From Herminiimonas arsenicoxydans (lineage in GTDB: Bacteria; Pseudomonadota; Gammaproteobacteria; Burkholderiales; Burkholderiaceae_D), in NCBI GenBank assembly GCA_000026125.1, contig CU207211.1, positions 2,232,001 to 2,296,000 of the forward strand: a stretch of DNA of 64,000 bases. Direction: 5' to 3'. This document shows positions 30,821 to 55,420 of the stretch, in pieces. Under the pieces are notes generated by a model. It was not told where the DNA came from. It worked only from the letters and a program-made list of their open reading frames with translations, and ran no database searches. The position numbers and the translations under genes are program-made. Position 1 is the first letter of the stretch. Each line of letters begins with the position of its first letter.

Positions 30821-30841
30821 TGCAGACCAATACTGGAATTC

Positions 30842-31923: not shown

Positions 31924-31930
31924 GCAATCG

Positions 31931-31968
31931 ATTCTAGGATTGCACGAACGAGTCAAAGCACTTTTGTC
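31931..31968 (-). promoter_or_regulatory. Putative phage late promoter, lysis unit (site C)
   Basis: On the minus strand GACAAAAGTGCTTT (31955-31968) is followed after exactly 18 bp by TAGAAT (31931-31936). The same pair at the same spacing occurs at 49.5 and 55.0 kb. The expected transcription start is at or next to the endolysin ATG. The upstream element overlaps the stop codon of the giant gene. Confidence 0.65.
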
Positions 31969-34900
31969 TAGCGTAGCGCCTTCCTTATTATTTCGAGTCG
32001 GCGCTTTTCAATGTTCTCAAATTTCGATCTTTGGTCCGCGTCATCTGTCTTGTCTGTTTCCAAGCGCCGGCGCTCCTTATTTTCGTATTGCATATCTTCC
32101 TCGGCTTTCTCCCATTTTCTACGAACCGCTTTGCCTTTCTTCAGATCGCCTTCGCCCAGCTCAGTCAATGTGCGCTCTTCCGATGCTCGATCCCCTACCT
32201 TGCTGTACTTCTTGGCCTGTTCCAACGCTTGCTTGACCTTGCGCTGATCCTCGTAGTAAGCGCGTTCCAGCGCGCGCTCTTCTGGTGCTTCGCCATAGAA
32301 TCGGGACAATGCCGGGATCTGGCTCGGCTCTACCCGCTTTCCGGTAGCGGAACGGGTCGCAGTATCGATACTCTTGTCTGCAGTCTGGCTCAGGCCCGGC
32401 ACGGCCCACGATAAGAATATCGTCCTGAGCACTTCTGGCGGAATATCGACGCTACCTGGCTTGATGGTATCTCCACCGCTAACATCGTTCAGCATCTTGG
32501 ATGCCTCCACCCAATGTTCTGCAGTCGCACGGAAATGGCGCGTGTAGGCCGGCCCAATATGGCCTCGATCATCTGCCTCTCGGTATAGTGGCGCTCCTGT
32601 GAACGATTTATTTTCGCTGATCTGCGTCACTGGCTTGAGAACGGACGGCGTAATCAGCTGATTAAATGAGCCATTCGAACCCAGCGGATTGAAAGCGTCT
32701 ACCGTGATGCGGGCAATCGACAGTGCGCGCTCGACAGGGTCGGCCTTTGCGCCAAACACCATATCTGACATCATGCGCCCCATGTTCAATGCAATATGCG
32801 GACCGTATGGCATCGGCACTTTGATGTACTTTCCGCTTGGTGACATGAATATCCAGTTGCGTTCACGCTCCCATTCAGGAATTAGATCGTACTTTTTCCG
32901 GCCGGTTTCATCATCGTCACCACCGATTGCACGGTTCACGGCGTCCAATACAAAGCCAATCCCAACCAAGGCCGCTGCCACGGTCTGCGCCCGGCGGTTG
33001 GTCGCAATGGCAGTCAGAAAGCGAGTGTTGCCTTGTATGCTGGCATTCATAAACATGTACAACGCGTTGAAGCCAGTAGATTGATTTCCGCGCCGGTTGA
33101 AGTTGACTGTGATGTTCTTTGCCATCGAGGCCGATTTGCGGATCGTCATGCCATTATCTCTGCCGGCCTGATACACAGCCAGGCGCACGCCATTTTCGAT
33201 GATGGTGTTGTAGTCATCGATTGCTTCAATCATGCTGCGCGCCAGCTTGCGCGGGTCTGCTTTGCCCTGCTGCATCTGCGCGAGTTGCTTTTCAAGATCG
33301 GCCATGTGATCTTCAGGCGATTCAAATACTTTCACATAACCAGTCTCAGCGCCCGCGCTCTTGAATTCGTTGGCGTAATCTGCCCACTTCCCCTCACCGT
33401 CGCCGCGTGTAATCTTCCAGTAACCGCGCATGGCTGACGGGATATTCTTCATCACCTGCGCTTCCTTGCCCGCAATTGGAGTGTCCTGCAAATTGAAGGC
33501 TGCACCCTGCACGTCGCGCGCAAAGTTGGTAATCCAGAACAACGGGTTCCGGGCGGTAATCCACTGCGCCAGATGCCGCGTCAGCTTGCCCGTGCTTTCA
33601 ATTACCCAAGGCAAGGTTGGCATGTCGAGATTCTTCATGGCCTTCGCTATTTCGACGGCTCTGGCATTCTTCTCGTTAAAGACGATGAAGTGTTCGATTC
33701 CATTTTCTTTTACTACCAGCACGTTATCGGCAACCTTGTAGCGCGGGTCTACCGCAACCTCGACTAACCCGGTTTCCTTGCTGACGGTCTTTTTCTGGGG
33801 CGGCATGTCCACCTTCCAGAATGCATCGTTCGGATGGTTCCGTGCCAGATCAAGCAGTGAGCGCCCGACCTTTGCCTTTTCGCTGCGCATGATACTGCTC
33901 TGCGCCTGGGCGATGATGTTGGCAAGGATGTTGGTAGCTTCCTTGTCGGAGCCCATACGACGCTGCGATTCCTTGCCTTTTACCGCATAGCCTTGGCCGG
34001 TGCCTTGGCGCCCACCCTCAACGTCGCGCATCAATGGCACGTAATGTTTATAGGTGGACTCCCATTGGCGCACCATCTCGGCAGTCTCAAGACCGGATGA
34101 AACTATGCGCCGGCGTGTCTCGGTCGTGATGTTGTCCACCATACCGGCAATGCGCGTCATATCGCCGTTGCCCCGATACTTGCCCATGATTGCGGCGGCT
34201 TTGGCATCCGTCATGCCAGACAGTGCCGTGTTGTTCGGCTGGTCGGCATTCAGTGCGCGCAACTTGGTATTCACGTCATCCAGGCTGACGTGCCGCGCAT
34301 ATAGATATTCGCTGACATCGGCGACAGTGAGCCCGGCCTTGTTGATCGCTTCGAGCATGGGCGTCACACGGCGATCAACCAGCTTATCGATCATGGCGGT
34401 GACTTTGCCGATGTACAGCTCTTCGTTCAGGTAGGCGTCTTGGCCCTCGGTGATGGTCGCGCCGGTTTCGCGGATTGCGTCCTGCACCCGCTTCAAATCG
34501 ATCTTATTGTTTTGCATCGCACGCACCACAGCGTCCAGAGTGCCGGGTTCGGGCGAGTCAAAAGTGGCGCGCGTGCCGAAGTTTAAAGCGTGCTGCGAAC
34601 GAGCGATGCGTGGCGCGCTGGTAGCCATTTGATCCATCTCGGCAGAAGTGCGTGCAAATAGCGAACCCTGCTCATTGAACATATCCACCTGGTCGGCGGT
34701 GACGTTCTTTTCTTTCGGCTTATCGGTCTTCGCCTCGGCTTTGGCTGCGCGTTCGTCGGCACTCTGTTTTGCCAGCACTTCCTCGCGGGTCAATGGTGTG
34801 CCGGATTCCAGTGGCGTCTTCTGCTCACGCGCAAACGCACCGGCAGGCTGGCCGTATTGCATCTCACGGCCTTGCTGACGCAGATAGTTCTGGGCATCGC

Positions 34901-37900
34901 GAAGCAGGCCGGCGATTTCGGCGTCGGTTATGTCTGAATCGATAAAGCCGATTTTCTTCAGGAACGTGCGAATCGCATCATAGACGCGGCGCGTAATACT
35001 GTTCTGGATATTGCGCTCGGCCATGATCGCGATGATTTCTTTGGCGCGGCGCTTCTCGTCAATGTCTGGTTGCGAGCGATCAACCTGAGCGCCTAACTCT
35101 TGAATTAACTTGTTGCCGTCCTGCTCGGCTCGAATCACGCGCTTGACCAGCGCATTCATTGCGCCGGGGTCAGCCGAATCGCTCAACATGTTTTCAAGGC
35201 CGTAGTGACCGATGAGTTCATGCCGTGCTACTTCACGCGCGCGTTCTGGCGAATCAAGATTGCTTGCAATAAGCGCGACCTTGTTCTTCGCCATGTCCCA
35301 ATAACCCTCAACGTCGCCACCACCTTCGCGGCGAGCTTGGATTCGGATGTATTCTGGCGCATCGTCTAGTGTGGCGTACACGTCAACATCGTGGTTGAAC
35401 GAGTCTTTGGCGATCGCCGCGCGGACAGCATCGACGGATAGGCCGGTTTGCTTGCCGTTGCGCTGGAATAACGTGTCTTTGCCTTGGCTATCTAGTTCTG
35501 TCGTGTATTCCTCGACGGCTTTGCGGCGGGCTTCAATGCGGCCTTGTTCCGAGTCGTCATTTGAGTATTCACGATACGGCACACCGGCCTTATCCAATGC
35601 TTCGCGCACCGCTTTTGACGTATCGCTTGGGATAACAGCGCCGGAAAATTCCGACAAACTAACGTCACGAAGAATCTTCGCCTCGAAGTAACCAGTTGGA
35701 AGTTCACGCAACTTCTGCATGAAATCCGATACTTGCCGCTGTAACTCTAGTGGCACATCTTCAAAGCCATTTTCATTTAACGCGCGTGGCACGCCCATCT
35801 TTGCCGCATCAGACATAGTGCCAGTCACAGTATCGGAAAACCCGAATCTGTCACTAGCTGGATGATACGATTCAAGGCTGCGTGTAATTGAATTCAACTC
35901 ATCGTCAATTTCTTTTTTGACCGCGCCAAAAGATTCTTCGCCTACGATTCTTCCTTTGTTCTTTTTTATTTCAGCAATGGATCTGAATTGTGGGGTGACG
36001 GTCGCGCGTATAGATCCGACGCCATAGCTAAAGTTTTCGCCAGCACGCAATTCTTTTTTCAGAATCTTGACGACGTTTTCCAGCGTGTGCGGCGTGTACT
36101 TACGCTTTCCTGCGTTTGTATAGCCTTGGAATATGCGTTCTTCAGCACCTGAATTTAGAACCAGGTCTTTAGCGAATTGATCTACTTGTTTGTATGCTTG
36201 GTTTTCGCTTATTGCATTTGCAATGGCGCGCTCTGTCTTGTATTTATCGACGGCTCCATTTTCCATAACTGGATCGACAACAATTCCCATACTGTCTAGC
36301 GCCGCAGCGCGTACCGAGTTCATGCCTGCCAATTCTCTGACGGCATCATTGTCTAAATCTGTTGGGTATAAGTCACGATTACCATACCGCTCTGTATATG
36401 GTTTGAGTGCTTGATTGATTGATTCCAGCGCGTCACGATCAAACTTATGATTTACCGATGGATAGCGGGGAGAATATATATCAGCGCCAAAAACCTTTGT
36501 GCCGGCATAGCCTTTAGGGTCAGCCATGTTGCGCGATCCGATGAGCGTGATTTCACCAAATCCGTCTAGTGCATTGGATTTTTTTGTTATGGCGAATGAC
36601 GGCACGGCAATGCCGCCCATGCGATTAGCATGTAATAAATTTGCGCCTGTCAGATTGTGCGTGAACATCAAGTCCCGCGTATCGTCTGCACGTGAAAACG
36701 GCACATAGTCAGGATCGTCATTTCGATCAACGCGAGAATCGTTCGCGTCAAAAGGAATATCGCTGTCTGGATCGTTGGAGGTATTGCTGCCAAAAATATC
36801 TTCTTGGCCTTGTGATGCAGCGACATCTGCGGTGCGATCACTACCTGTCAGGGTGAAGCTGCCGCGCTCGGCATCGGCTTGCGTGCGTTGGTCGGATTTA
36901 CGCGCGTCTGCCTCGTCGCGTTGACGGGCTTGTGCTTGGCGGTCAATACGGGATTGCGCTTCCTGTTCGGTTTCGCCGTCCAGCGCAAAATCATCTACGC
37001 TTTCGGATCGAACCCTTCCGGTGCTTTCGCCATCGTCGCCGGCGCGTTGACTTGCTGCTGATGCAGGCGGCGCGCCTTCAGTAGCTTGAGTAACACTTCG
37101 GTTGTTTCCTTCTTCTGCGCTGGCGTCATTGTTGACTTCGCCATTCTCGCCGCCCATGCTTGCGCTGGCGTCATCGGAGTCGATTGTGATTGCGGCTTCT
37201 TCTGGTTCGCTGACTGTTTCGTACTCATCGGTAAATTCCTCAATATTGTCTTGCCCGTCTTCCGGCAGTGCGTCCAATTGCTCTGCAAGCTGCGCATCAA
37301 GCCAGCCCTGTTCATTCATCGCTTGGCCGACCTTTGCATAACCTTGTGGCGTGAAATGCTTATTGCCGCGCAGCTCACCATCAAACAGATCAAACAATTC
37401 ACTCAGATCATGCTTGCCGTTTTCATCATAGGACAGATAGCCCAACTCTGCCAATGCTTCGCCTGCGCGGTCCAGGCTCATGCCGTTGGCGGTACCTACG
37501 CGCTTAATGCCTGCCCCGCGTAGGGATTTGAACTCGGACGGATCAAAGCCCCATTGTTTTGTCAGGTCGTCCATGCGGATACCGCCCAGCTTGGCAATGG
37601 CGGCGAACATGGAGTCGCTTTCAGTATCTACCTGATTGGCGTTGCGCTTGCGACGGCCATGCGCTGCAATCTGCGCTTCTGTCTGCGGTTGATGGCGAAT
37701 TACAAAGCCGCCTGCACCTTTCTTGACTTGCCAGCCTTTACCGGCCAGCTTCTTCTCTTTGTCTGCCGCTGCTTTGGTTGCAAATGGTTTACCGGTAGCA
37801 GCAACGATGTCGCCGGGACGCAAACCTTCGGATGCTGTTTCCAGTTGCGTAGAGCGCTCGGTGATTTGTTCCGGCAGTTCAAACGGACGATCTACTTCAG

Positions 37901-39539
37901 CGGCCATTTCAGGCGCTGTGACTGTCGGCGCAACAATCGGATCTGCTTTTGCTGTCTTTGCCGCTTCCCATGTGTCGGCCTTGCTCAGGCTATTCAAATG
38001 CTCCGCAATTGGCACTGCTTCGTACTTGACGGTATTTAATGCCTCAACCTTTTTAGGGTCGTAGGTTTCCATGACTACATCGCCAGTTGCCTTGTCGCGG
38101 ATAACCCAACTAGCAGTCCTGGCAGTTGCCGGAGTTTCTTGCGTCAGTGCGGTCGGTTGTTCAATGGAAGGTGTTGCAGGATCAGGGATTGCAATACGGG
38201 ATTCATTTTGCACGGGAGCGGCCACGGATTCATTGCCCTGCACTGTAACGGGCTGAACGACGGGCAATTCGGCAGTTGTTGGTAAATCATTAGCTGGTTC
38301 CTTTGCAGGCGCGTCCAGAAAATCATCTGCGGCCTCTATTGGCGTGCGTGGCTTTGGTTTCGGCAAAGGGCTGATGATATTAAGAGCCTGTGATTCATTC
38401 GGCGCAAGACTAGCGCGCGCAACTTGCTCAGCAGGAATTGCATATTCTGCCTTGTCAACGGCCTCATTGATTGCTTTGGCAATCTGTTTATTTGGATTCT
38501 GTGCTTGCGATGCTGCGCTTAATGCCTGTCCGCCTGCGACCATGCCGCCTGATTGCATCAGGGTAGCAAGCGCCGTGTCTTTCATTTGCTTGGCTAGATC
38601 AGCGCCGGTTGCCTCTTGATTTGTACCGACGCCAGGCAGCTTGTCTATGCCGAACTGCAAGGCAGTCGTCAACTCTTCGCCAGGCGTTTCGCGGATGCCG
38701 GACTTGATCATGGCGCGCGCAAGCGGCTCGATTGACTGGCCTTTTACCGCGTCACCAATACCTTTGGACAGTATGCCGAACCCGCCGACTTTCTCACCAG
38801 CGACTTCTGCGGCCCCTGTCAATAACGCATTAATTGCCGCACCGCCACCAGTAACGCCAGAATTGCGTGCGTCACTGTATTGATTTGCTGAAGACTGCCC
38901 GAACATCTGCATTAGGCCAAGCGTCGGATTGCCTGTGGCCGCGCTAATTGCCAATGCTGGCGCGTTAGCGATAACCGAGCTGACAGCACTTGCACCTGCT
39001 TGCGGCAAGTCTTGAATGATCGAGTTTGGCGTGAATCCTTCAATCGGCTGCTTATCAAGAACAGCGCCTTGTGTGAAGTCGCGGATTCTCCCGCCTGATT
39101 GTGATCCGTATGTACTTAGTCGATCGATGCCAGTTATATCGCCAGCGGCTTCAATTGCGCCAGCTGCTGATTGGGCGAGATTGCCAATGCCTTGACGCAA
39201 GCCAAGTACCGGCGCGCTAAGTTTTACTGGCGCGGCTCCAAGCGCATAAGCAGACGATGGTGCATTTGCACGCACTCGCTCTAACTCATTGGCGGATTCC
39301 ATATTGAAAGCACTTGGAATGTCCCGCATGACGCCTAAATCATTAGGATCAGTATTATTCCCCGGTTGGAATATCTTATTCAGCGTGGAATAAAGTTGTT
39401 CTTTTAATGGCTTCTGTGATTTACTTGTTGGCTCTGTCACTACTGGCAATGACGGCGATTCAGGAGATTTTCTATCTAAAAAATCGTCGGCCTTTGAAGT
39501 TAAAGTTAACTTGCCATCAAGAAAATCATCTGCGCGCAT
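31968..39539 (-). CDS. Giant polyvalent ejection protein (2523 residues)
   Basis: The start overlaps the previous stop (TAATG). The motif ADDFLD occurs at residues 3-8, 17-22 and 404-409. A Pro/Ala-rich linker, acidic low-complexity regions (about 780-960) and an HELIGHYGLE zincin-like motif near residue 1440 follow. A hydrophobic C-terminal region (about 1990-2360, e.g. NPLFWITNFARDVQG) resembles the LPD38 domain of large polyvalent phage proteins. Such proteins are packaged and injected with phage DNA, and can protect it from host defences or help it cross the envelope. The HEL motif reads HExxGH rather than HExxH, so protease activity is uncertain. Confidence 0.85.
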   Translation of the reverse strand: MRADDFLDGKLTLTSKADDFLDRKSPESPSLPVVTEPTSKSQKPLKEQLYSTLNKIFQPGNNTDPNDLGVMRDIPSAFNMESANELERVRANAPSSAYALGAAPVKLSAPVLGLRQGIGNLAQSAAGAIEAAGDITGIDRLSTYGSQSGGRIRDFTQGAVLDKQPIEGFTPNSIIQDLPQAGASAVSSVIANAPALAISAATGNPTLGLMQMFGQSSANQYSDARNSGVTGGGAAINALLTGAAEVAGEKVGGFGILSKGIGDAVKGQSIEPLARAMIKSGIRETPGEELTTALQFGIDKLPGVGTNQEATGADLAKQMKDTALATLMQSGGMVAGGQALSAASQAQNPNKQIAKAINEAVDKAEYAIPAEQVARASLAPNESQALNIISPLPKPKPRTPIEAADDFLDAPAKEPANDLPTTAELPVVQPVTVQGNESVAAPVQNESRIAIPDPATPSIEQPTALTQETPATARTASWVIRDKATGDVVMETYDPKKVEALNTVKYEAVPIAEHLNSLSKADTWEAAKTAKADPIVAPTVTAPEMAAEVDRPFELPEQITERSTQLETASEGLRPGDIVAATGKPFATKAAADKEKKLAGKGWQVKKGAGGFVIRHQPQTEAQIAAHGRRKRNANQVDTESDSMFAAIAKLGGIRMDDLTKQWGFDPSEFKSLRGAGIKRVGTANGMSLDRAGEALAELGYLSYDENGKHDLSELFDLFDGELRGNKHFTPQGYAKVGQAMNEQGWLDAQLAEQLDALPEDGQDNIEEFTDEYETVSEPEEAAITIDSDDASASMGGENGEVNNDASAEEGNNRSVTQATEGAPPASAASQRAGDDGESTGRVRSESVDDFALDGETEQEAQSRIDRQAQARQRDEADARKSDQRTQADAERGSFTLTGSDRTADVAASQGQEDIFGSNTSNDPDSDIPFDANDSRVDRNDDPDYVPFSRADDTRDLMFTHNLTGANLLHANRMGGIAVPSFAITKKSNALDGFGEITLIGSRNMADPKGYAGTKVFGADIYSPRYPSVNHKFDRDALESINQALKPYTERYGNRDLYPTDLDNDAVRELAGMNSVRAAALDSMGIVVDPVMENGAVDKYKTERAIANAISENQAYKQVDQFAKDLVLNSGAEERIFQGYTNAGKRKYTPHTLENVVKILKKELRAGENFSYGVGSIRATVTPQFRSIAEIKKNKGRIVGEESFGAVKKEIDDELNSITRSLESYHPASDRFGFSDTVTGTMSDAAKMGVPRALNENGFEDVPLELQRQVSDFMQKLRELPTGYFEAKILRDVSLSEFSGAVIPSDTSKAVREALDKAGVPYREYSNDDSEQGRIEARRKAVEEYTTELDSQGKDTLFQRNGKQTGLSVDAVRAAIAKDSFNHDVDVYATLDDAPEYIRIQARREGGGDVEGYWDMAKNKVALIASNLDSPERAREVARHELIGHYGLENMLSDSADPGAMNALVKRVIRAEQDGNKLIQELGAQVDRSQPDIDEKRRAKEIIAIMAERNIQNSITRRVYDAIRTFLKKIGFIDSDITDAEIAGLLRDAQNYLRQQGREMQYGQPAGAFAREQKTPLESGTPLTREEVLAKQSADERAAKAEAKTDKPKEKNVTADQVDMFNEQGSLFARTSAEMDQMATSAPRIARSQHALNFGTRATFDSPEPGTLDAVVRAMQNNKIDLKRVQDAIRETGATITEGQDAYLNEELYIGKVTAMIDKLVDRRVTPMLEAINKAGLTVADVSEYLYARHVSLDDVNTKLRALNADQPNNTALSGMTDAKAAAIMGKYRGNGDMTRIAGMVDNITTETRRRIVSSGLETAEMVRQWESTYKHYVPLMRDVEGGRQGTGQGYAVKGKESQRRMGSDKEATNILANIIAQAQSSIMRSEKAKVGRSLLDLARNHPNDAFWKVDMPPQKKTVSKETGLVEVAVDPRYKVADNVLVVKENGIEHFIVFNEKNARAVEIAKAMKNLDMPTLPWVIESTGKLTRHLAQWITARNPLFWITNFARDVQGAAFNLQDTPIAGKEAQVMKNIPSAMRGYWKITRGDGEGKWADYANEFKSAGAETGYVKVFESPEDHMADLEKQLAQMQQGKADPRKLARSMIEAIDDYNTIIENGVRLAVYQAGRDNGMTIRKSASMAKNITVNFNRRGNQSTGFNALYMFMNASIQGNTRFLTAIATNRRAQTVAAALVGIGFVLDAVNRAIGGDDDETGRKKYDLIPEWERERNWIFMSPSGKYIKVPMPYGPHIALNMGRMMSDMVFGAKADPVERALSIARITVDAFNPLGSNGSFNQLITPSVLKPVTQISENKSFTGAPLYREADDRGHIGPAYTRHFRATAEHWVEASKMLNDVSGGDTIKPGSVDIPPEVLRTIFLSWAVPGLSQTADKSIDTATRSATGKRVEPSQIPALSRFYGEAPEERALERAYYEDQRKVKQALEQAKKYSKVGDRASEERTLTELGEGDLKKGKAVRRKWEKAEEDMQYENKERRRLETDKTDDADQRSKFENIEKRRLEIIRKALR

Positions 39540-40537: not shown

Positions 40538-40541
40538 ATGT

Positions 40542-41315: not shown

Positions 41316-41323
41316 GTCATTCC

Positions 41324-44056: not shown

Positions 44057-44111
44057 ATCACATTCTTTTCAGTATTATACTAGGCATTGATCGTGATTTA
44101 AGGAGAGCGTC

Positions 44112-44909: not shown

Positions 44910-44914
44910 TCCCA

Positions 44915-45951: not shown

Positions 45952-45959
45952 GGAATTCT

Positions 45960-46274: not shown

Positions 46275-46516
46275 GCTTGCACCTGCTCTGCGAACCACGC
46301 TTCAGCACCGATTCCGTATCCGTCTGGGGTTGCGAAGTCAGCGTCCCAAGCATGACGGAGTGTACGGTCTGCTGGAATATCCGAATCTTCGACGATGAGA
46401 TATGGAACACCTGCTGGCACATCCTTCTTTGCTACTTCTTCAATCGGAAGTTCGCCGGTTGGGTGGATGATTGCAACACCTGTCGATATTGGGTAGATAA
46501 TTCGTTTGTTTGTCAT
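46271..46516 (-). CDS. Small protein downstream of tail fibre, putative fibre assembly factor
   Basis: The 81-residue protein begins MTNKRIIYPISTGVAIIHPT. IIYPISTGVAIIHPTGE with VPYLIVEDSDIP resembles short proteins next to fibre genes in many podoviruses. It is translated from nine bases after the fibre gene and overlaps the next start by four bases. Confidence 0.65.
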   Translation of the reverse strand: MTNKRIIYPISTGVAIIHPTGELPIEEVAKKDVPAGVPYLIVEDSDIPADRTLRHAWDADFATPDGYGIGAEAWFAEQVQA

Positions 46517-46525
46517 GATGCTCTT

Positions 46526-47773
46526 TCAGCGGAAAAACGCGATATTTACATTGACCAAATCAGCGAGACCTTGCGCAGCAACGCCGGGGATTGACGGTTT
46601 GCCTGTTCTCACTTGGTAGGCTGACGTTGTTTGCGTACTATCTATAGTCCACACAGAAGGCATTTGACCGCCTGTTGTCGAGTCAGTTGAAGCCATACCA
46701 GTTGCGCTGTAATTAGCGTCCGGCATAGCAGCCATAAAGTTCACCACGTAATCACCTACACCAGTATCCGTAATGCTAGACACGTTTCCGCTTCCACGAA
46801 TAGCTACAGTGCCGGTGCCGTTGAAGTTAACCCATGCGCGGCACGCATAGACTGGCGCTGTTCCAGCGGCATTGAATGCTTCACGGATGCCAAGTGGGTC
46901 AACTGATTTACCTTCAACGGTTCCGGCTGCATTTTCTGCTGCTGATGAAAAGTTAGCGGCGACGAATGCTGTACTAGCTGCTTTAGCAGAAGCGTCACCA
47001 ACTGACGGCGTAGGAACTACTGGCGAATCAGCGAAGGTTTTTACACCTGCAATTGATTCAGCACTAGTGCGGTGAACGAGGTTTGCTGGATTGATCGCGG
47101 CTTCGCTTGCGGCAGCGGCAGCGGCAGCAGCTTGTGCGGCAATGCGATCAGCGTCGGCATCTGCGGCCGCTGCAAGAGCAGTTACTTTTGAGGCGTCGGA
47201 AGATGATGCGGAAAGCGCAGCATTTGTGGCATTTGTATCGCTGGCATTTTTGTTTGCCAGAGTGCTTGCTGCATTTGCGTCGGTCGCAAGTTTTGCGGCT
47301 GCAACATCGGAGGCTAGTATAGTTACATTTGCCTCTGCAGCAACGACAGTAGTCTTCGATGCGAGAGCGGCTGCGGCCTCGCTAGTGGCTGTGTTTTTGC
47401 TTGCAAGCGCACTGGCCTCGGATGCTGCCGCGGCAACCTTGAAAGCATTTACCTGAGTTACCGCATCAGCAAGATGCGTTTCAGACAAAGCTGCAGCAGC
47501 GGCGGATGCGGCAGCATCTTCCACGGACGAGCCGACCGCCGCGAGAATGCCCTGCGAAAGATCGTTGCGAACATCTTCGCTGATGGAATCGGTAGTAATG
47601 ACATTCGGATTTAGCTTGCCATCGTCCGCCTGGAGAATGGCAAGGTTGGTGCGAATGTCATTGATGGAGTTCGACGCCTTGTCCAGCTCTGCATTGAGGG
47701 CTGAGTGATCAGTCTCGCTTCCAAAGTCTTCGGTAAAGTCCTTGGTGCGATTGTAGGCTGGTGGTTGCGGCAT
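46526..47773 (-). CDS. Tail fibre protein
   Basis: The 415-residue protein has a short N-terminal anchor region and an Ala/Ser-rich heptad stretch (about 85-225, with repeated ASKNTAT/ALASKTT-like units) that should form a trimeric coiled coil. HRTSAESIAGVKTFADSP is a common fibre motif, followed by a beta-rich distal tip. It should bind the host surface receptor. It follows the small head gene within 12 bp. Long antisense frames over the Ala-rich part are artefacts of codon bias. Confidence 0.85.
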   Translation of the reverse strand: MPQPPAYNRTKDFTEDFGSETDHSALNAELDKASNSINDIRTNLAILQADDGKLNPNVITTDSISEDVRNDLSQGILAAVGSSVEDAAASAAAAALSETHLADAVTQVNAFKVAAAASEASALASKNTATSEAAAALASKTTVVAAEANVTILASDVAAAKLATDANAASTLANKNASDTNATNAALSASSSDASKVTALAAAADADADRIAAQAAAAAAAASEAAINPANLVHRTSAESIAGVKTFADSPVVPTPSVGDASAKAASTAFVAANFSSAAENAAGTVEGKSVDPLGIREAFNAAGTAPVYACRAWVNFNGTGTVAIRGSGNVSSITDTGVGDYVVNFMAAMPDANYSATGMASTDSTTGGQMPSVWTIDSTQTTSAYQVRTGKPSIPGVAAQGLADLVNVNIAFFR

Positions 47774-47784
47774 CGAACTACCCC

Positions 47785-48105
47785 TTACTTGGCTTCAGGT
47801 TTTTTACTTGCTGCTTTCTTGGTTGCCGCCATTGCAGTTTCCAAGCCCTTCGATGCCTTCTTGCCATAGACTTCTTCCACGGCTTCGGAGCCATACTTGG
47901 CACTCAGGCGCGAGAATTCATCTTCTGGATCAGGGACTTCGCCGGATGGCTCACCAATACCAAATTCTTCAACGCTGCGACCGTCTGCGGTCTGCACGTT
48001 TTCTTCGCCAAACAACTCTTGAACGATTGGCAGTTCATGTTCTGGAATATCAACCGGCGTTGTGGTGTGAGCATCACGGCGGATCTTGAATGCAAATAAT
48101 TTCAT
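47785..48105 (-). CDS. Small acidic phage head-region protein
   Basis: The 106-residue protein (MKLFAFKIRRDAHTTTPVDI...) has an acidic middle (EEFGIGEPSGEVPDPEDEF) and a Lys/Ala-rich C-terminus. It lies between the capsid terminator and the tail fibre gene. A role in head completion or decoration is possible from position only. No domain recognised. Confidence 0.62.
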   Translation of the reverse strand: MKLFAFKIRRDAHTTTPVDIPEHELPIVQELFGEENVQTADGRSVEEFGIGEPSGEVPDPEDEFSRLSAKYGSEAVEEVYGKKASKGLETAMAATKKAASKKPEAK

Positions 48106-48133
48106 TTGTTACCTCGTATAGTTTTATTGCTTC

Positions 48134-48165
48134 AAAAAACCCCGCCACCAACGAAGGCAGCGGGG
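48134..48165 (-). terminator. Terminator downstream of major capsid gene
   Basis: On the minus strand CCCCGCTGCC and GGTGGCGGGG pair (two G-U wobbles), with loop TTCGTT and six T after it. It lies 31 bp past the capsid stop. Tail genes follow without an evident new promoter, so read-through is probably partial. Confidence 0.8.
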
Positions 48166-48195
48166 AAGGATTGCCATTGGCAACCGCGAGGAGCT

Positions 48196-49248
48196 TTAAG
48201 CGATAGCCATTACCGAGTGGGCGTTTGCTTTCTTCAGCACCAGAGCCAGGCGCAGATTGATCATCTGGTACAAGGCCAGCACGTTATGCGGACGGGTCGG
48301 CGTGACAATATCCATGTCGTCGTCGCGCAATTCAATGTGCTTGGTGTTGATGAAGTAGCAGCGTTTTTCCCAAGGAATAACCGGTGCATCGAGCGCGTCC
48401 AGCGTTTCGAAGTTCGGGTCCCAAATGATTTCAACGCCCTTGAAGTACAAGCCAGTCGATACACCCGAGCCGACGCCAGCATCCAGGCGTTTCACACTGC
48501 CTGCATCGGTATTCTGTGTAATGCCTTGAATGCCGTATTGGCGGTATGCGTCAATGAATGCAGAGCCTGCCAGGATGAAGTCGGGCATGCCGCCTGTGCG
48601 GATACACTTGCGCCATTGGAGTTCCATCGCTGTAGCCAGCGCGCCGGCAGTAGTCGATGCGATTGCAGTGGTGAAGTTATTGCGCCAGTACACGGCAGTA
48701 GCGCGATCCAGACCGCCGACAATGCCGGTAGCTGGTGCGATAGCAATCAGGCCATCCAGACCGGTGACAGCATCAGTAGATGCAGTGCCGTTGCGGTGCA
48801 ATTCAATGTCCAGCTTTTCCATAAAGCCGAGGCGGAACTGCTCCATGTTTTCGTTCAGCAGATTGACCAGTTGGACTTTTTCGTTCTGCTCCAACTTGTA
48901 TTGGCCACGATCACCTTCACGAACCTTGATGCCGTTACCGAACAGGGTGTCATAGTCGATATAGAAACCATCGACAGCACGACGCCAAGGGAATGCAGCT
49001 TGCTCGCCCTTGTCGCGCTTGTTGAAGCCGACAGTGGTTTCGCCGTATGCCCACGCAAAGTTGGTGTCATACGCTTTACGGATTTGAACGGTGACGTTCT
49101 GCTTTGCGCCCAAGAACAGCTTGCGCTTGGACATGAGTTTTTTTAACAGGGGATGCTCAACACCAATTTGATCCACTGGTGTATTGCGCATGAACTCGTC
49201 GAGGGATACCTTGCCGAGTGCTGCAAGATCGGGTGCTGAAATAGGCAT
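48196..49248 (-). CDS. Major capsid protein
   Basis: The 350-residue form starts MPISAPDLAALGKVSLDEFM with AGGAG eight bases upstream; a longer reading to 49290 lacks support. Composition and size fit an HK97-fold coat protein, and it directly follows the scaffold gene as in other tailed phages. QVNLLNENMEQ-type and GLDGLIAI-type segments resemble coat proteins of Burkholderiales podoviruses. It has its own putative promoter and terminator, consistent with high expression. Confidence 0.82.
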   Translation of the reverse strand: MPISAPDLAALGKVSLDEFMRNTPVDQIGVEHPLLKKLMSKRKLFLGAKQNVTVQIRKAYDTNFAWAYGETTVGFNKRDKGEQAAFPWRRAVDGFYIDYDTLFGNGIKVREGDRGQYKLEQNEKVQLVNLLNENMEQFRLGFMEKLDIELHRNGTASTDAVTGLDGLIAIAPATGIVGGLDRATAVYWRNNFTTAIASTTAGALATAMELQWRKCIRTGGMPDFILAGSAFIDAYRQYGIQGITQNTDAGSVKRLDAGVGSGVSTGLYFKGVEIIWDPNFETLDALDAPVIPWEKRCYFINTKHIELRDDDMDIVTPTRPHNVLALYQMINLRLALVLKKANAHSVMAIA

Positions 49249-49499
49249 GTTTGCCGCTCCTAAATATGAAAGATGAAAGTTCTCTTTCACATCGCGTCCA
49301 CACGCAAACTGGACTATTTAGAGTTTCAGACTGGCCGGCCTGCTACTCAGTGCGCTACCGGGACGCGACCCCCGGCTTGTACAGCGACAAATTTCGATGT
49401 GTTGCTTCTGCTTCGTTTGGCTTCAGGTGCTGGTGCGCGACTTCCAGCATTACGGCTGACCTTCCACTTCTCGAAACAGAAAACGTGTTGCTGGATTGA

Positions 49500-49537
49500 A
49501 TTTTAGGTGCTGCGTCAAGTGGCAAAGCACATTTGTC
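49500..49537 (-). promoter_or_regulatory. Putative phage late promoter, capsid unit (site B)
   Basis: On the minus strand GACAAATGTGCTTT (49524-49537) is followed after 18 bp by TAAAAT (49500-49505). It lies just downstream of the scaffold terminator and about 250 bp before the capsid start. It has the same architecture as the sites at 31.9 and 55.0 kb. Confidence 0.65.
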
Positions 49538-49543
49538 CGCACA

Positions 49544-49570
49544 TTAAAAAGCCCACGTCTAAGGTGGGCT
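49544..49570 (-). terminator. Terminator between scaffold and capsid genes
   Basis: On the minus strand AGCCCAC / GTGGGCT (7 bp stem, 7 base loop) is followed by TTTTTAAT. The 339 bp scaffold-capsid gap otherwise holds late promoter B and a leader of about 245 bases without a convincing gene. Confidence 0.82.
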
Positions 49571-49587
49571 AGTTGGTTGCGAAAAAG

Positions 49588-50640
49588 TTACAATCCGAGG
49601 CTTTCAAGATGCCCCATGATGCGGTCTTCCGTGGATGCATTGGCATTCGTTACTGGTGCGCCATGCGTTGCGCTTCGGCTGCGTAGTGGCTGCGGCGTGT
49701 TGACTGGCTGCGCTGGCGCGACACTCATGTTGTCGTACATGAAACGGAACTGTGCAAACCATTGCTTGGGCTCAAAGTTCTGCACGAACTCCTGCATCTT
49801 CGCTGGATCTTTGAAGTGCTCCTGAATGCGGCGAATCTTTGGGGCAAAGTCTGCTTCATGCTTGCGTGTGTCGAAATATGCTTCAGCGGTTTTGGCGGCA
49901 TCCGCAACGGTGCGCTGGAATTCCTGATCGCCCTGTTGCTGCAACTGCTGCGCTTGTTGCGCTTGCTTTGCTGCCATGTCTTGCCGCTCAAACTTTGCCA
50001 GCTTCAGCGCATGCTCCTTCGTCATTTCCATGTTATCGACGGCCAGCTTCAGGTCGGGGAAGTCGGACAGCGGATCCACGCCAGGCGCTTCAATGCCAAG
50101 CTGCTTGCAAATTGCTTCGCGCTGTTCATCCAGCATCTGCAATGCAATGCGCGCCTGCGATTCGTCACCTGAATTGAGCAAGCGGCCAAACTCCAGCATC
50201 TGCGAGAATTCTTGCGGCTGCATGCCGGTGGACTGCACCATCTCTTTGAATTCGGTAATGTCTTGTTCAAGCTGCTGTTTGACAGATTCTGTTTCCTTCA
50301 GCTTGGCGAATGTTGCCTGGATGCGTTCGCGCCCACGGTCAGACTTGACGCCTTCCAGTGCTTCGGCTTCTTCTTCTTCCAGCGTCTTCGGCTTGGCGGC
50401 TTCGGCATCAGTCGGCTTTGCTGCGGCCTTAGCCTCGTCCTCTTTCGGTGCATTGGGATCTGGCTCGCTGATCGAATCCAGCAAAGCAGTAGCGGCATCG
50501 CCTTCTGTTGGCGCTGGCGCTTCAATGACTTCGGCTTCTGGTGCGTTCTCTGCCTCATTGCTTTCGTCGTGCGTTACTTCGTCATTGTCCGATACGTTGC
50601 CGGTCAATTGATCTAATACGTCCTCGCGTTCTGTTGCCAT
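49588..50640 (-). CDS. Scaffolding protein
   Basis: The 350-residue acidic, low-complexity protein has a Glu/Ala/Asp-rich N-terminus (residues 1-100), a predicted helical coiled coil (about 100-200) and a Gln-rich run (AAKQAQQAQQLQQQGDQEF). A more basic C-terminal end should contact the coat protein. Its place between portal and major capsid genes is the normal place for a scaffold that directs procapsid assembly and is then released. Confidence 0.78.
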   Translation of the reverse strand: MATEREDVLDQLTGNVSDNDEVTHDESNEAENAPEAEVIEAPAPTEGDAATALLDSISEPDPNAPKEDEAKAAAKPTDAEAAKPKTLEEEEAEALEGVKSDRGRERIQATFAKLKETESVKQQLEQDITEFKEMVQSTGMQPQEFSQMLEFGRLLNSGDESQARIALQMLDEQREAICKQLGIEAPGVDPLSDFPDLKLAVDNMEMTKEHALKLAKFERQDMAAKQAQQAQQLQQQGDQEFQRTVADAAKTAEAYFDTRKHEADFAPKIRRIQEHFKDPAKMQEFVQNFEPKQWFAQFRFMYDNMSVAPAQPVNTPQPLRSRSATHGAPVTNANASTEDRIMGHLESLGL

Positions 50641-50658
50641 TTAGTTTTCTCCTGGTGG

Positions 50659-51090
50659 TTATTTTCTATTTCGCTCATCAAATACAATTTTCCCGCTTGG
50701 CAAGGCCAGTTGATCTACCTCATTCCAGCGTGGCGCACCGTTCGTCGCCCATTTACTTTCCGCTGAAAATGATTGATGTGCTGGCGTCTTAAAATAGTCG
50801 GTAAAGTGCATCCGACCATCATTTTCATTGATGCCTGACGAAGCAACTGGCGATCCATCTACTTGAGCTTTATAAAAACCGCGCATGTCATAGTCAGCAT
50901 TTGCCGACGGATCAAACGGCACATTGTTTTTTTGTACCCATCCTTGAAACGCCATTTCACGCAATGGATCGAGCTTGGTCGTGTAGCCGGTCATAACAGG
51001 CGCCGACTTGGCATAGGAAAGCGGCGCTCTTTCTTGCCGTTGCTGACTAGCTGCCTCGATGACGCTCGCAAGAATGTCTTTAATATCCAT
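50659..51090 (-). CDS. Conserved phage virion-region protein
   Basis: A 143-residue protein between portal and scaffold. LDPLREMAFQGWVQKNNVPF, YDMRGFYKAQ, GRMHFTDYFKTPAHQSFS and a final GKIVFDERNR form a pattern shared by uncharacterised proteins at the same locus in other podoviruses (recalled, not searched). Trp/Tyr/Phe-rich and mostly beta. No enzymatic motif seen. Confidence 0.7.
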   Translation of the reverse strand: MDIKDILASVIEAASQQRQERAPLSYAKSAPVMTGYTTKLDPLREMAFQGWVQKNNVPFDPSANADYDMRGFYKAQVDGSPVASSGINENDGRMHFTDYFKTPAHQSFSAESKWATNGAPRWNEVDQLALPSGKIVFDERNRK

Positions 51091-51092
51091 GA

Positions 51093-53042
51093 TTATTGTG
51101 GCGGCATACCTGGTTGCATCGGCATTGGCGGCGGCGGTAACGGTTTTAATTTCGGCATGATCTGCTCCACATCGAGCTTATCGTCAAAGCGCGAAACGGT
51201 TTCCTTGAGCAGCGATTCCAGCGAAGTCGTATCAATCCCTTTTAATTGCAGGTCCATGATTTGCGTGATCAACGGCTGGATGACTGGCATCAGCTTGATC
51301 CAAGTCTCCTGCTGCTCCAACTTGTCCGGCTCTCCGGTAGTGCCTGCGCGGATCTTGATCTGCACCATATCGAAGACTTCTTCGCGGGAGAGCTGCGGCC
51401 AGTCATATGATGGTTCAATCACAACCTGAATTGGCTCTCCTGTGCCTGGGTCAACGGCTGGCACTTCAGATACTGCGCCGGTCAATGGATCTTGCATTGG
51501 TTGCATCATCGGCCCCATCTTGTGCGGTCCCATGATTCGCTCGACTTGTTGCTGCGTCATCTCTTGCAGCAGGATTTCGGCGGCATACTGGTACATGTCA
51601 GTCACGCAATCCTCCACCTGATCGCGCATTTCAGATACGCGGCCGGATAGGCTTTGCTGCATGATCGATGCTTCGGTTGCCGTCTTGGCTTGTACGACTG
51701 ACGAGCGCGCCGCGTCCTGCATGCCAGATACTTGTTCCCAATCGTAGCGAACCTTGCTTGTGTCATAGACAGCAGGATCGATAGCTGGATGTTGTTTTGG
51801 CATGATCATTTGCTGAATGTTCTTACCTTCAGAATCCATAATAGTAATTTCACCCAGCACAGAATCTTCATAGCGCTTGATGGTTTTCTCATTCACATCA
51901 GAGCCAGCAACCCAGCCAGGCTTCACCAGATCGCGATGCGCGTTCTCTTTGTCGCGCGTGTCGTTGTGTTCTTTCTGTAGGCGCTCAGTCAAATCAACCA
52001 GTGACGGGCCGATGAAGTTGCCGTCAACGGTTTGGAATGGCAAAAGGAAGAATGGGTACCAACGCTTGCCGACGCGTGGCGGGCTGTACGGCGGACGCAA
52101 GAAGAATTCGCAGCCCTCAACCAATGTATAGACGCGCTGGCTGCGCTTGTCCCAAATCTCGCAGATGCAGATCATGCAATCGCTGCTATCGGTAGAATCA
52201 CCGCCAGAAAACACTTTGCCGCCTTCATTGGGCGCGGCCATTGTTGGGTCGCTGTACGTCTTCGCCTTATCCAGCTTCATCTTGTAATCGCCTTCCGCCG
52301 TGGATTTCTTGGTCGGAATCAATTGGATGATGTAATCGGCTTGCTTGTAATCCCAAAACTCAGCAACGGATGGATCAACCAGCAAATGTTCAGTCAGCAC
52401 GCGGTCAACGGTAATGCCCTCGCCTGCGACAATCTCGACCTTTTCATTGAGGCCGGCCATTGTTTGCTCTAGCTCTTGCTTGATGGCTTCCTGCTCACCT
52501 TTGGCGCCTGGGTCGTCCAGTTGCAGCATGAGTGCTTCGACTCTGGATATATTGTCCTGGGTGTCTTCAATGCGCGAGCGGATGATTGGATCTTCGGTCC
52601 GCTCACGCTGATAAGTGACTTTCACATTACCGAATGAGCAGGTCATGGCGGCGCGTACCGTGGACTTCATGCGCGTCTTCAGGTCAGCTTCAACCATTTG
52701 GCGGTTGGTAACAGTCTCGATCGTCTTGCACAGCAGCTTGAGATTGCGGCCGGCGTGCGTTGCGCTGACGCTAACTTCAGGATTGCGCGCGTAAATATTC
52801 GGCAAGATGGCTGTGATCGTGCCGTGAATCAGGTTTGCGCGGAGCGTATAGAAGTCTTCGGAGTCCGGATCCTTTGTCCAGTTGAAACCGGCAACCAATT
52901 TGCGATTGTGCTTCACGCGCTTATGGAATTTTTCGTAATGCTTTCGAGCAGCAGTGATGCGCTTGCCCCACTCCTTCGCCAATGGATCGGTTTCCGGCGT
53001 GGCGTATGGGTCTTTTTGCTCTGGAGTAGGTTGATCGCTCAT
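51093..53042 (-). CDS. Portal protein
   Basis: The 649-residue protein starts in ATGA overlap with the terminase stop. Size and order (terminase-portal-scaffold-capsid) fit a podovirus portal, which forms the dodecameric DNA entry channel of the head. It has a helical insert at about 155-200 (coiled coil with RVEALMLQLDD) and a C-terminal proline-rich tail (LKPLPPPPMPMQPGMPPQ). The PFQTVDGNFIGPSLVDLTERLQKEHND region resembles P22-type portals. Confidence 0.85.
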   Translation of the reverse strand: MSDQPTPEQKDPYATPETDPLAKEWGKRITAARKHYEKFHKRVKHNRKLVAGFNWTKDPDSEDFYTLRANLIHGTITAILPNIYARNPEVSVSATHAGRNLKLLCKTIETVTNRQMVEADLKTRMKSTVRAAMTCSFGNVKVTYQRERTEDPIIRSRIEDTQDNISRVEALMLQLDDPGAKGEQEAIKQELEQTMAGLNEKVEIVAGEGITVDRVLTEHLLVDPSVAEFWDYKQADYIIQLIPTKKSTAEGDYKMKLDKAKTYSDPTMAAPNEGGKVFSGGDSTDSSDCMICICEIWDKRSQRVYTLVEGCEFFLRPPYSPPRVGKRWYPFFLLPFQTVDGNFIGPSLVDLTERLQKEHNDTRDKENAHRDLVKPGWVAGSDVNEKTIKRYEDSVLGEITIMDSEGKNIQQMIMPKQHPAIDPAVYDTSKVRYDWEQVSGMQDAARSSVVQAKTATEASIMQQSLSGRVSEMRDQVEDCVTDMYQYAAEILLQEMTQQQVERIMGPHKMGPMMQPMQDPLTGAVSEVPAVDPGTGEPIQVVIEPSYDWPQLSREEVFDMVQIKIRAGTTGEPDKLEQQETWIKLMPVIQPLITQIMDLQLKGIDTTSLESLLKETVSRFDDKLDVEQIMPKLKPLPPPPMPMQPGMPPQ

Positions 53043-54433
53043 GTCTTCAAGAAGTGTTGGTTTCCATCTTTATATACGTCGTCGGGGTAGTCTTCGGACT
53101 TTTGTTCTTCGTCTGGTGCGCGGCGACGACGCATTACCCCATAGCGCAAGGTATCGACTGCATGATCTTCTGCCTTGGTGTCGTACTTCTCTGGATCGTT
53201 ATCGTCGGGACCGATGGCCGGCAGCGTGCGCAACAAGTGCTTGCAGGTGCTGAATATTTTTAGCTTGTCATCGCCCATGAGCCGCATGATTTCCTGCGCG
53301 CCATTGGCAATCGATCCCTTTGCATTCCAGGCTTCCTGCCATTTGACGCCTGCCTTGCGGAAGATCGCACCGATGGTTGTGTTCACGCCGGTATTCGAGA
53401 AGATCGACGGATCAGCCAGGTTCATGCGGTACTCATAGCCCAAGCGCTCGTCCCGCTCTTCTATCGTCCGCACCTTCTTGGCAACTACATCAGCATGCTC
53501 ACGCGATCCCTCACCCACCTTTTCGCCAGCACCGTACAGTTCTCGCCATACATATATGCATCCGTCAGGGTCCATCGCCAGCCACAGGACGCAATACGGC
53601 GCAGCGAAGCCCCAATCCATTGCCTTCCATACTTGCCATGAAGCAGGGATCGGGAACGGATCGACAATATGGCGCTTGGCATCCCATACGCCCTCAAAGA
53701 ATGAACCGACATGAATATCCCAATCGCCCTCGAGCCATGCACGGCGACGGTTTGGATCTTTCAATGCCTCTAGCGTCTTCAGATAATCTGGATCGCTTTC
53801 AAGTAAATGGGTGTTTTCATGGATGGACGAACGGATGCGTACACGCGGCTGCTCACCTTCCAGCCGGATAACCTGCCCTGATGGCGTGCCGCCAGTTCCT
53901 AAGTCGTAGCGCTCTTTAACCCACCCATGGCCACGGCCAAATGGATTGCAAGTTGCGCGTCGTCTGCGCGGCATACCGGGGAAAGATGAACGGCAGGTCG
54001 ATGCCATGGCCTCAAAGAAAGTAGGATCGCGCCAGTTAGTTAGTTCCTCATAGCCCTGCCATGGGTATTCATGGCCGTGATAGTTCCAGTAATCATCCTC
54101 GCTCTCGCCATAACGGAAGAAAAGCTGTTCGCCGGTAGGCCATGTCCAGCAATAATTGGATTCGTTGAATTTGATGCCGGGGAATATCTGGTAATACCAT
54201 CGCTTCGTCTTCGCTACCACGTCGGCGAGTTGCGGATATGTGAGCCTGAACAGAACGCCGCGCCAGTGTTGACCGAATCCACGGCCACAAAACTGCGCGA
54301 AATCCATCACTAGCGTGTCAGTCTTGCCGCCGCCGCGCGTGCCTTCCAGCAAAACTTCATAAATAGGGCAGGACATAAACTGCGTTTGGCTTCCCGGCAA
54401 GGGTTGCCAAATGATGCGTGGCTCGTCAGGCAT
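53039..54433 (-). CDS. Terminase large subunit
   Basis: The 464-residue DNA packaging motor starts MPDEPRIIW at 54433, overlapping the small subunit by eight bases. Walker A EGTRGGGKT covers about residues 30-38. The C-terminal nuclease has acidic residues in AMDWGFAAP, NLADPSIFS and EDHAVDTLRYG. It translocates and cuts concatemeric phage DNA at the portal. Length and motifs are complete. Confidence 0.93.
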   Translation of the reverse strand: MPDEPRIIWQPLPGSQTQFMSCPIYEVLLEGTRGGGKTDTLVMDFAQFCGRGFGQHWRGVLFRLTYPQLADVVAKTKRWYYQIFPGIKFNESNYCWTWPTGEQLFFRYGESEDDYWNYHGHEYPWQGYEELTNWRDPTFFEAMASTCRSSFPGMPRRRRATCNPFGRGHGWVKERYDLGTGGTPSGQVIRLEGEQPRVRIRSSIHENTHLLESDPDYLKTLEALKDPNRRRAWLEGDWDIHVGSFFEGVWDAKRHIVDPFPIPASWQVWKAMDWGFAAPYCVLWLAMDPDGCIYVWRELYGAGEKVGEGSREHADVVAKKVRTIEERDERLGYEYRMNLADPSIFSNTGVNTTIGAIFRKAGVKWQEAWNAKGSIANGAQEIMRLMGDDKLKIFSTCKHLLRTLPAIGPDDNDPEKYDTKAEDHAVDTLRYGVMRRRRAPDEEQKSEDYPDDVYKDGNQHFLKT

Positions 54434-54842
54434 TACTCTGCTTTTCCCAATCAGCCTCACTCATTGCGCTGGGCGCGACCAGTACGCCGGTCGTTTGCAC
54501 CATGTCTTTTCCGTTCGTTGTGTGGTCTATTGCTGCCAAACGCGGATGGACATAAGGCGCAGCGGCACTAGCAGCATCCTTTGCCAGTACCAGCAGCTTG
54601 ATTGAACTCTTGCGCTCGTCGGCATCCTCGCTATTGCTGGCAGTCTCCGCAGCACGCAGGAAGCCGGCCATTACCCGCATCATTACTTCAAGCGGGCTTT
54701 CACCTTCTTTGGCCTCGCTGATCACCTTCTCTGCGATCTCGCGGGTTCTGACGGTCGTGGCGCTTTTCTTGCGGCCAGCATTAGGCCGAGCGCCGCCGCG
54801 TCCGGTTGATTTCTTTTGAATGTTTTGATTATCTTGATTCAT
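54426..54842 (-). CDS. Terminase small subunit
   Basis: The 138-residue protein has the GRGGARPNAGRKK N-terminal motif common in small terminases, followed by helices that would form the DNA-binding and oligomer core. It recognises the packaging site. It overlaps both neighbours (ATGA with the small membrane-protein gene, eight bases with the large subunit). Confidence 0.85.
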   Translation of the reverse strand: MNQDNQNIQKKSTGRGGARPNAGRKKSATTVRTREIAEKVISEAKEGESPLEVMMRVMAGFLRAAETASNSEDADERKSSIKLLVLAKDAASAAAPYVHPRLAAIDHTTNGKDMVQTTGVLVAPSAMSEADWEKQSNA

Positions 54843-54949
54843 TTCAAATCAGGATCACGGCCGAAGGTGAGAATCCCCGTCGTCCACAACAAAGCGATAG
54901 CGACCGTGACCACCAATGCCACCAAGCCGATAATTTCAAGAATGTTCAT
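54839..54949 (-). CDS. Very small membrane protein ahead of terminase
   Basis: A 36-residue frame reads MNILEIIGLVALVVTVAI then a second hydrophobic part and ends TFGRDPDLK. One membrane span is likely. GAGG eight bases before ATG and an ATGA overlap with the terminase small subunit support it. It is the first gene after late promoter A. Function unknown. Confidence 0.62.
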   Translation of the reverse strand: MNILEIIGLVALVVTVAIALLWTTGILTFGRDPDLK

Positions 54950-54979
54950 GCAACCTCGATGCGTTGTGAGCCTCGGCAA

Positions 54980-55017
54980 ATTGTGGCCCGCGTCATCGAA
55001 GTGAAAGCACATTTGTC
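54980..55017 (-). promoter_or_regulatory. Putative phage late promoter, packaging unit (site A)
   Basis: On the minus strand GACAAATGTGCTTT (55004-55017) is followed after 18 bp by CACAAT (54980-54985). Transcription should start near 54973, about 25 bases before the small membrane-protein gene. It has the same arrangement as sites B and C and overlaps the 3' end of the 76-residue gene. Confidence 0.65.
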
Positions 55018-55223: not shown

Positions 55224-55420
55224 AAGTCTCTCCCAAATTCTCATTGCTTCCTCGTAGTATCAAAGAGCGGTCAGTGCCGCTTTAGGTTGAAAGGGTGACT
55301 GCTTACGTCAGTCAATCGGATCGCCCGCCTAATGCATCTGGGTACTATCTTGAAAGGACGATGCCTGGCGATCTGCTTCCGTTATGTCCCCACGGTTTGC
55401 TCGGGTCATGAAACGACTAC

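Follow-up and report, generated by a model that had tools for sequence, protein, structure and literature searches.

How are the late genes of a prophage read when the promoters in front of them lack a usual −35 element? The question is raised by a 64,000-nucleotide stretch of the Herminiimonas arsenicoxydans genome (contig CU207211.1, positions 2,232,001 to 2,296,000; hereafter the window), in which prophage late genes on the minus strand stand behind repeated copies of one short element. An earlier note on this DNA had described three copies of a 14-mer, here called A, B and C, with a −10-like hexamer exactly 18 bp downstream on the minus strand in every case. The coordinates, the invariant spacing and the hexamers (TAGAAT in A, TAAAAT in B, CACAAT in C) were confirmed, and PHROG matches of the flanking genes bear out the gene context that it gave: copy C precedes the terminase genes, copy B the capsid gene and copy A the genes for endolysin and Rz. 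Comparison with related phages redefines the element as a shorter box at a fixed distance from the −10, adds a fourth copy, D, and strongly supports the proposal of a phage-specific late promoter. The box, its spacing, its positions and its conservation were observed in this analysis. The sites are very probably a class of late promoters, and the best overall explanation is that the host sigma70 polymerase reads them as phage late promoters, for which we estimate a probability of roughly 0.8. The features concerned are the following.

55007..55016, minus strand: box of copy C, ACAAATGTGC, overlapping the 3' end of the gene for an 83-amino-acid (83-aa) protein, upstream of the terminase genes; 20.2 bits
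54980..54985, minus strand: −10 hexamer of copy C, CACAAT, at offset 31
53096..53105, minus strand: box of copy D, ACAAAAGTCC, within the terminase large subunit gene, upstream of the portal gene; 24.5 bits
53069..53074, minus strand: −10 hexamer of copy D, TATAAA, at offset 31; portal ATG at 53042
49527..49536, minus strand: box of copy B, ACAAATGTGC, upstream of the major capsid gene; 21.2 bits
49500..49505, minus strand: −10 hexamer of copy B, TAAAAT, at offset 31
31958..31967, minus strand: box of copy A, ACAAAAGTGC, at the stop codon of a 2523-aa gene, upstream of the lysis genes; 20.4 bits
31931..31936, minus strand: −10 hexamer of copy A, TAGAAT, at offset 31
54993..55244, minus strand: gene of the 83-aa protein p83, candidate late regulator, predicted small Tudor-like beta barrel
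53039..54460, minus strand: terminase large subunit (PHROG match)
51093..53042, minus strand: portal protein (PHROG match)
48196..49290, minus strand: major capsid protein, i.e. major head protein (PHROG match)
31480..31956, minus strand: endolysin open reading frame (ORF), longest frame (PHROG match), with an inner ATG 7 bp past the copy A −10
31004..31564, minus strand: Rz-like spanin (PHROG match)

Relatives of the terminase and capsid proteins were taken from IMG/VR and the long records were scanned. When the regions upstream of the capsid genes were compared, the conserved element was the 10-bp asymmetric box ACAAAWRTSC, without the TTT that trails it in this phage. A sigma70-type −10 hexamer begins 31 bases downstream of the first A of the box (offset 31), which leaves a gap of 21 bp. 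A set of 55 non-redundant sites was obtained with the pattern ACAAAWRTBC by dropping, from 144 sites, those with at least 30 of 37 letters identical to a kept site. A −10 hexamer, counted when at least four of its six letters agree with TATAAT, is found at offset 31 in all 18 non-redundant capsid sites; the capsid class was picked by box and position, so this count informs on spacing and not on frequency. For capsid and other sites together the figure is 31/38, compared to at most 5/38 at any other offset from 11 to 59. Pairwise identity among 33 sites, 15 of them non-capsid sites selected for having A2 and T6 in the −10, amounts to 86% in the box, 68% in the −10, 32% in the spacer and 27–28% in the flanks. 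The length of the spacer is kept while its letters drift. Over related prophages, box and −10 spacing of the motif first described thus recur; its TTT tail does not.

The boxes are strongly oriented. In 2.09 Mb of redundant loci 145 occur on the late strand and 5 on the opposite strand, and 14 records including the window hold 37 late-strand boxes (about 3.9 expected from shuffles) and a single opposite one (about 2.8 expected). These 14-record sums leave out G072 and G073, which have no box, and G005, which has one late-strand box without a −10 (G numbers denote records, L numbers loci). Among the 14, G063 lacks a box in the ACAAA spelling, its capsid promoter reading AGAAAAATGC (L091). The sole opposite-strand box, near position 31138 of G060, is accompanied by the −10-like TAGAGT at offset 31 and is possibly an antisense promoter. 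Most records of the closer group of relatives have one box ahead of the capsid gene and another where terminase and portal meet. The box is found at the 3' end of the p83 gene in G076, L162, L200 and L201, and in G077 directly past the homologue of the 2523-aa gene, which is the place of copy A. Several relatives also have a box before or inside other late genes.

Copy D, at 53105-53069, was recognized by its agreement with the relatives. The three copies had been called the only occurrences, which holds for the 14-mer with up to two mismatches in the window (3 matches with 1.09 expected, at least 3 being reached in 10 of 100 shuffles); the fourth copy was missed. When the window was scored with a matrix trained on 47 sites of relatives, the phage itself being excluded, the top four positions were 53105 (24.5 bits), 49536 (21.2), 31967 (20.4) and 55016 (20.2). 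The next-best score was 9.7 when only the 32.5-kb stretch of the prophage is considered and 12.4 over all 64 kb, and the maxima in 20 shuffles of the prophage stretch ranged from 9.1 to 19.2. The full pattern of 14-mer and −10 occurs three times in the 3,424,307-base genome, always within this prophage, whereas the same pattern read backwards as a control does not occur there, so that the host-genome check proposed in the earlier note came out in favor of its claim. A fifth box in the window on the late strand, ACAAAAATGC at 47253-47244, has TGCTGC at offset 31, i.e. no −10, and is probably due to chance.

Copy D falls within the 3' end of the terminase coding sequence, 63 bp upstream of the portal ATG, and its position allows protein and DNA constraints to be compared. 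A box at the 3' end of the terminase gene is found in 35/80 terminase loci, all of them among the 38 loci of the closer group (L004-L041), where it is read in the frame CAA-AWR-TCC. Over these partly redundant 38 loci the glutamine codon is CAA in 37/37 cases and the serine codon is TCC in 36/38, while the usage of these codons, calculated from 35 terminase genes that have the box, is 34% and 24%, respectively. The middle residue is Lys (23), Ile (10) or Met (5), always encoded by an AWR codon. The protein tolerates change at this site and the DNA does not, which from these codon counts points to selection at the DNA level. The three closer-group loci without the box are L029, which reads AGAAATATCC in the spelling of a second group of relatives, L026 with TCT and L039 with TCG.

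None of the copies contains an exact TTGACA, as had been stated before. TTGACT is present in copy A and TTGACG in copy B, both at unusual spacings, and in none of the four window copies does a TTGACN stand at the canonical sigma70 distance of 16–18 bp from the −10. The TTGAC of copy B (49518-49513) has counterparts in the capsid promoters of relatives: of the 18 non-redundant ones, 11 have TTGAC at offset 18 or 19 (about −25) and three at offset 10. None is found in the 15 other box sites and the 17 terminase sites show isolated, scattered cases. The capsid-promoter TTGAC is not a −35 at the usual spacing.

In view of the above, we suggest that the host sigma70 RNA polymerase would read the four late promoters. 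If the −10 hexamer is taken as −12 to −7, the box is located at about −43 to −34, where it could take the place of the absent −35. The simplest mechanism would involve either an activator of class-II type or a polymerase-bound co-factor standing in for −35 recognition, and the rigid 21-bp distance between box and −10 suggests that the bound protein would directly touch sigma or core polymerase. By the four promoters the late genes would be divided into units for terminase, portal, capsid/tail and lysis. Whichever protein reads the box, or causes the polymerase to do so, would most probably be phage-made. An alternative sigma factor as the reader is disfavored, since the −10 is sigma70-like and the 21-bp gap would be too long for a −35.

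A number of observations weigh against phage late promoters read by the host polymerase. Promoter activity, the time of expression and the activator are what we infer from the sequences. Taken by itself, the box is no rarity in the host genome, with 57 sites compared to 45 in the reversed control. The terminase sites have weaker −10 hexamers, of which 12/17 reach four of six letters and 3/17 combine A2 with T6. No lysis genes could be identified in relatives that carry the box, and the lysis junction is therefore represented by the window and G072 only. In the second group of relatives, which includes Polynucleobacter among its hosts, an ACAAA-spelled box precedes the capsid gene in 6/18 loci scanned, and most other loci have A[CG]AAATATYC with AATAAT at offset 31; this looser A[CG] spelling was derived from the same group after reading it. 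On sequence from which the box had not been derived, however, this spelling also gave support: all six of the 21 newly fetched genome loci of p83 that hold a capsid gene have a box and a −10 before that gene (L162 appears to be an already-seen phage, and L178 and L179 are alike), and 22/23 virus loci with a capsid gene have a box promoter, many of them overlapping earlier contigs. Most matches of the looser pattern in the 21 genome loci are located elsewhere and lack a −10.

The divergent relative G072, with a capsid protein 56% identical and a divergent p83, has no detectable ACAAA box. Instead, three of its late junctions carry ACTTTTYGGC, and in each case a −10-like hexamer follows at offset 31: ACTTTTTGGC before the capsid gene and before putative lysis genes (read from the translation), and ACTTTTCGGC at the terminase/portal junction. 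This box was chosen after seeing it and its third copy was found by eye, and the hexamers GACACT, GACCAT and CACAGT each agree with TATAAT in only three of six letters. The loci L100 and L102, which are alike, read ATTTTTCGGC-N21-GACACT. Judging from these sequences, G072 appears to have a different box at an unchanged offset. Among distant relatives the box was found at the capsid gene in 0/6 judged, and L103-L125 contribute none of the 55 sites; sigma70-like promoters are seen there in L119 and L120 by rule and in L104, L111 and L117 by eye.

The best candidate for the box-reading role would be p83, encoded just before the first late unit. We rate its chance of being the late regulator as about even. 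Of the 59 terminase loci whose sequence extends more than 1.5 kb upstream of the match, 58 were found to contain a p83 gene. With the ORFs of four phages as queries, and after setting aside any overlapping structural genes or antisense to p83, the p83 gene was the only non-structural ORF with relatives in all 12 long phage records. A box-type promoter is present at the capsid gene in 72/79 p83-positive loci and in 0/6 p83-negative loci, where the loci are redundant and the 72 consist of 70 found by the main rule and two by a rule made from those very phages. The product near 55.4 kb (55421-55888), which the earlier note had offered as a candidate regulator, gave no tblastn match in the 34 loci searched and was rejected. 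A second rejected candidate is a single-stranded-DNA-binding protein (SSB), the next most widespread non-structural ORF (9/12 long records); the window phage showed none. The SSB of phage N4 activates late genes, which is why an SSB came into consideration. As read from sequence, an SSB lies opposite to the late strand in G060, G061, G068, G069, G074, G076, G077, G078 and G080.

The predicted structure of p83 is in agreement with a protein that works on the polymerase. The AlphaFold model is a small beta barrel with a mean predicted local distance difference test score (pLDDT) of 76 and blocks at 80–92 in residues 11 to 70. At the top of the solved structures stands one of the chains of a bacterial transcription activation complex, and Tudor chains of Mfd, CarD and UvrD occur among the first 50 matches, together with chromo and CAP-Gly barrels. 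The Tudor domains of CarD, Mfd and UvrD bind polymerase. CarD also carries a second, DNA-contacting domain, for which p83 has no room. The fold and profile matches fit a polymerase-binding protein without establishing one. That p83 itself contacts the box is a tentative suggestion, somewhat doubtful on present grounds. We offer with similar reserve the idea that p83 could represent a new activator class, a stand-alone Tudor/RID-like mini-protein that binds the host polymerase and lets the sigma70 holoenzyme use the −43 to −34 box instead of a −35, the box being lineage-specific and co-evolving with it throughout a large family of temperate phages that has so far come to light in prophages and metagenomes.

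The case for p83 also has its counterweights. Seven of the 79 p83-positive loci have no box-type capsid promoter by the rule used; among them L054 has the near-box ATAAATATCC-N21-AATAAT, and L027/L182 and L028/L156 are two contigs counted twice. The association of p83 and box does not prove a link, since p83, capsid and terminase share one phylogeny. No Pfam family and no known DNA-binding motif were found in p83, and CarD_TRCF_RID (PF02559) is not among the families matched at E≤1 by the 27 members scanned. PF02559 does find one place in the genome of the host, near 1.92 Mb and outside the window. The matches to solved structures of Tudor type have weak scores, with E 0.032 for the best and none ≤0.001, and barrels of this type are common. 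A profile of p83 aligned with the host Mfd RID domains over 65 columns with a probability of 15% (P 0.0018), or 6% in global mode; the alignment used for p83, A1, contains 27 of 32 proteins. There is a weak PHROG match, to a group of unknown function. A side observation is that in L163, from a Limnohabitans genome, a p83 homologue occurs away from its usual terminase surroundings; neither a terminase nor a capsid homologue was detected in this locus. Between 9939 and 10468 it has ACGAATGTCC-N21-GACAAT directly before p83 and ACGAAAGTCC-N21-AAAAAT 529 bp later, a pair that may be chance as it was drawn from 47 candidates.

Among the other explanations, the one that survives best is that the box is read by a host-encoded activator and not by a phage protein. 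The lack of a Pfam family or DNA-binding motif in p83, the only shared non-structural phage protein found, would agree with this. So would the similarity of the hosts: 19 of the titles of the 21 p83 records name Burkholderiaceae, Quisquiliibacterium, Limnohabitans, Polynucleobacter or Herbaspirillum, the other two being an uncultured beta proteobacterium and a Bacteroidetes metagenome-assembled genome. However, the box is barely enriched in the host genome, the strict form with box and spacing is confined to the prophage, and in the divergent phage G072 the box differs at an unchanged offset. We consider a host activator unlikely.

A second possibility is that a lambda-Q-like antiterminator, which acts on paused polymerase, loads at the boxes, and that they are not sites for an activator. 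The p83 gene occupies the place of Q in lambdoid phages, weak structural matches of p83 include polymerase-binding Tudor-like domains, and long late units and a structured capsid leader lie downstream. Q-type late promoters keep a working −35, whereas the four copies have none at the usual spacing, and there are several promoters here and not one as in Q-type systems. This makes antitermination from the boxes rather improbable.

Less probable still is the dimeric phage activator that the earlier note placed at the −35 region, on the inverted repeat CAAA-N5-TTTG. The repeat is indeed present in two of the three copies first seen. The TTT half occurs past the box in 2/55 non-redundant sites, both from this phage (copy A is outside that set), copy D lacks it, and the conserved box is an asymmetric 10-mer. 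With neither the TTT tail nor the inverted repeat conserved, a palindromic site is not supported and there is little room left for this explanation. That the sites are chance matches or coding by-products without function is very unlikely given the comparative data, since one copy within coding sequence and the 10 shuffles in 100 that reach three 14-mers are outweighed by the fixed offset, the conservation at matching junctions, the prediction on new sequence and the codon-level evidence.

In their logic, late promoters of this kind appear nearest to the activator-dependent promoters of P2, Mu and T4, by analogy and without the DNA elements that define those systems. According to one account, the temperate phages P2 and 186 have several late promoters before separate morphogenesis operons under one activator, the zinc finger protein Ogr, with the element TGT-N12-ACA and the finger CX2CX22CX4C in P2 (PMC3931495). 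The arrangement of several promoters before separate operons, with the single phage activator that we propose, resembles this. TGT-N12-ACA is present in 0/4 copies between 100 bp upstream of the box and the −10, and the six frames of 30001-62500 contain no relaxed match to the finger. A study on Mu describes a set of four late promoters whose −35 elements depart from the consensus, under a single phage activator, C, bound upstream of the −35 (PMC4461284). Four late promoters, non-consensus −35 regions and one proposed phage activator make up the likeness to Mu so described. The site of Mu C is a TTAT-N6-ATAA dyad. Near the four copies this dyad is absent (0/4). In T4 middle promoters, where MotA and AsiA bring about sigma appropriation, a box stands in place of the −35 at a fixed geometry and a good −10 is required (PMC6755090). 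A box that replaces the −35 at fixed geometry is shared with the promoters found here. The MotA box is centered near −30, whereas the conserved box here spans about −43 to −34 with its center near −38.5. TGCTT, starting at −36, is found in copies A, B and C and in some relatives but is absent from copy D.

The earlier note knew the element from no described phage family, which is consistent with the limited searches made here (capsid ≤30% and portal ≤24% identity). In a phage collection the best capsid matches were 29.6% identical (a partial match to a fecal-sample record) and 29.2% identical (Microcystis phage Mae-Yong1326-1), the portal protein had two matches at 23–24%, and one member of the p83 family had none. 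No description of this promoter was found in the literature, the search of which did not cover most subscription journals and thus does not show absence from print.

Two of the promoters are followed by features of their own. Downstream of promoter B and ahead of the capsid gene is a conserved, structured leader RNA (49284-49403, minus strand) with repeated GTCGCG hairpins. Its alignment, which comprises 18 of 36 leaders with L162 in place of L033, supports 27 pairs, 16 of them with double-sided changes. The covariation score is 0.483 compared to 0.208 in shuffles and ≤0.101 when slid, and leans that way as the structure was derived from the same alignment. A search against Rfam at E≤1 found nothing at the window leader, and in five relatives nothing there reached the gathering score. 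The leader model matches before the capsid gene in L103, L106, L107, L121 and L124 (E 0.0002 to 0.0023). No box was found in these five loci, and the leader thus appears to be older than the box. At copy A, the −10 ends 7 bp before an ATG of the endolysin frame (31936-31920), so that the message may be leaderless. Further on, at 30777-30831, a match to the Rfam family STnc310 reaches 32.3 bits on both strands, below the gathering score of 40.

The promoter grammar described here has an exact geometry, by which late units become predictable straight from sequence in a phage family that, in the collections searched, was seen solely as prophages and metagenome contigs. It also names one small protein, p83, as the candidate late switch. 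Should p83 prove to act without a DNA-binding domain of a classical kind, it would illustrate how small a protein suffices to redirect a bacterial polymerase, and the series of box types at constant spacing would be a natural experiment in the co-evolution of a regulator and its sites.

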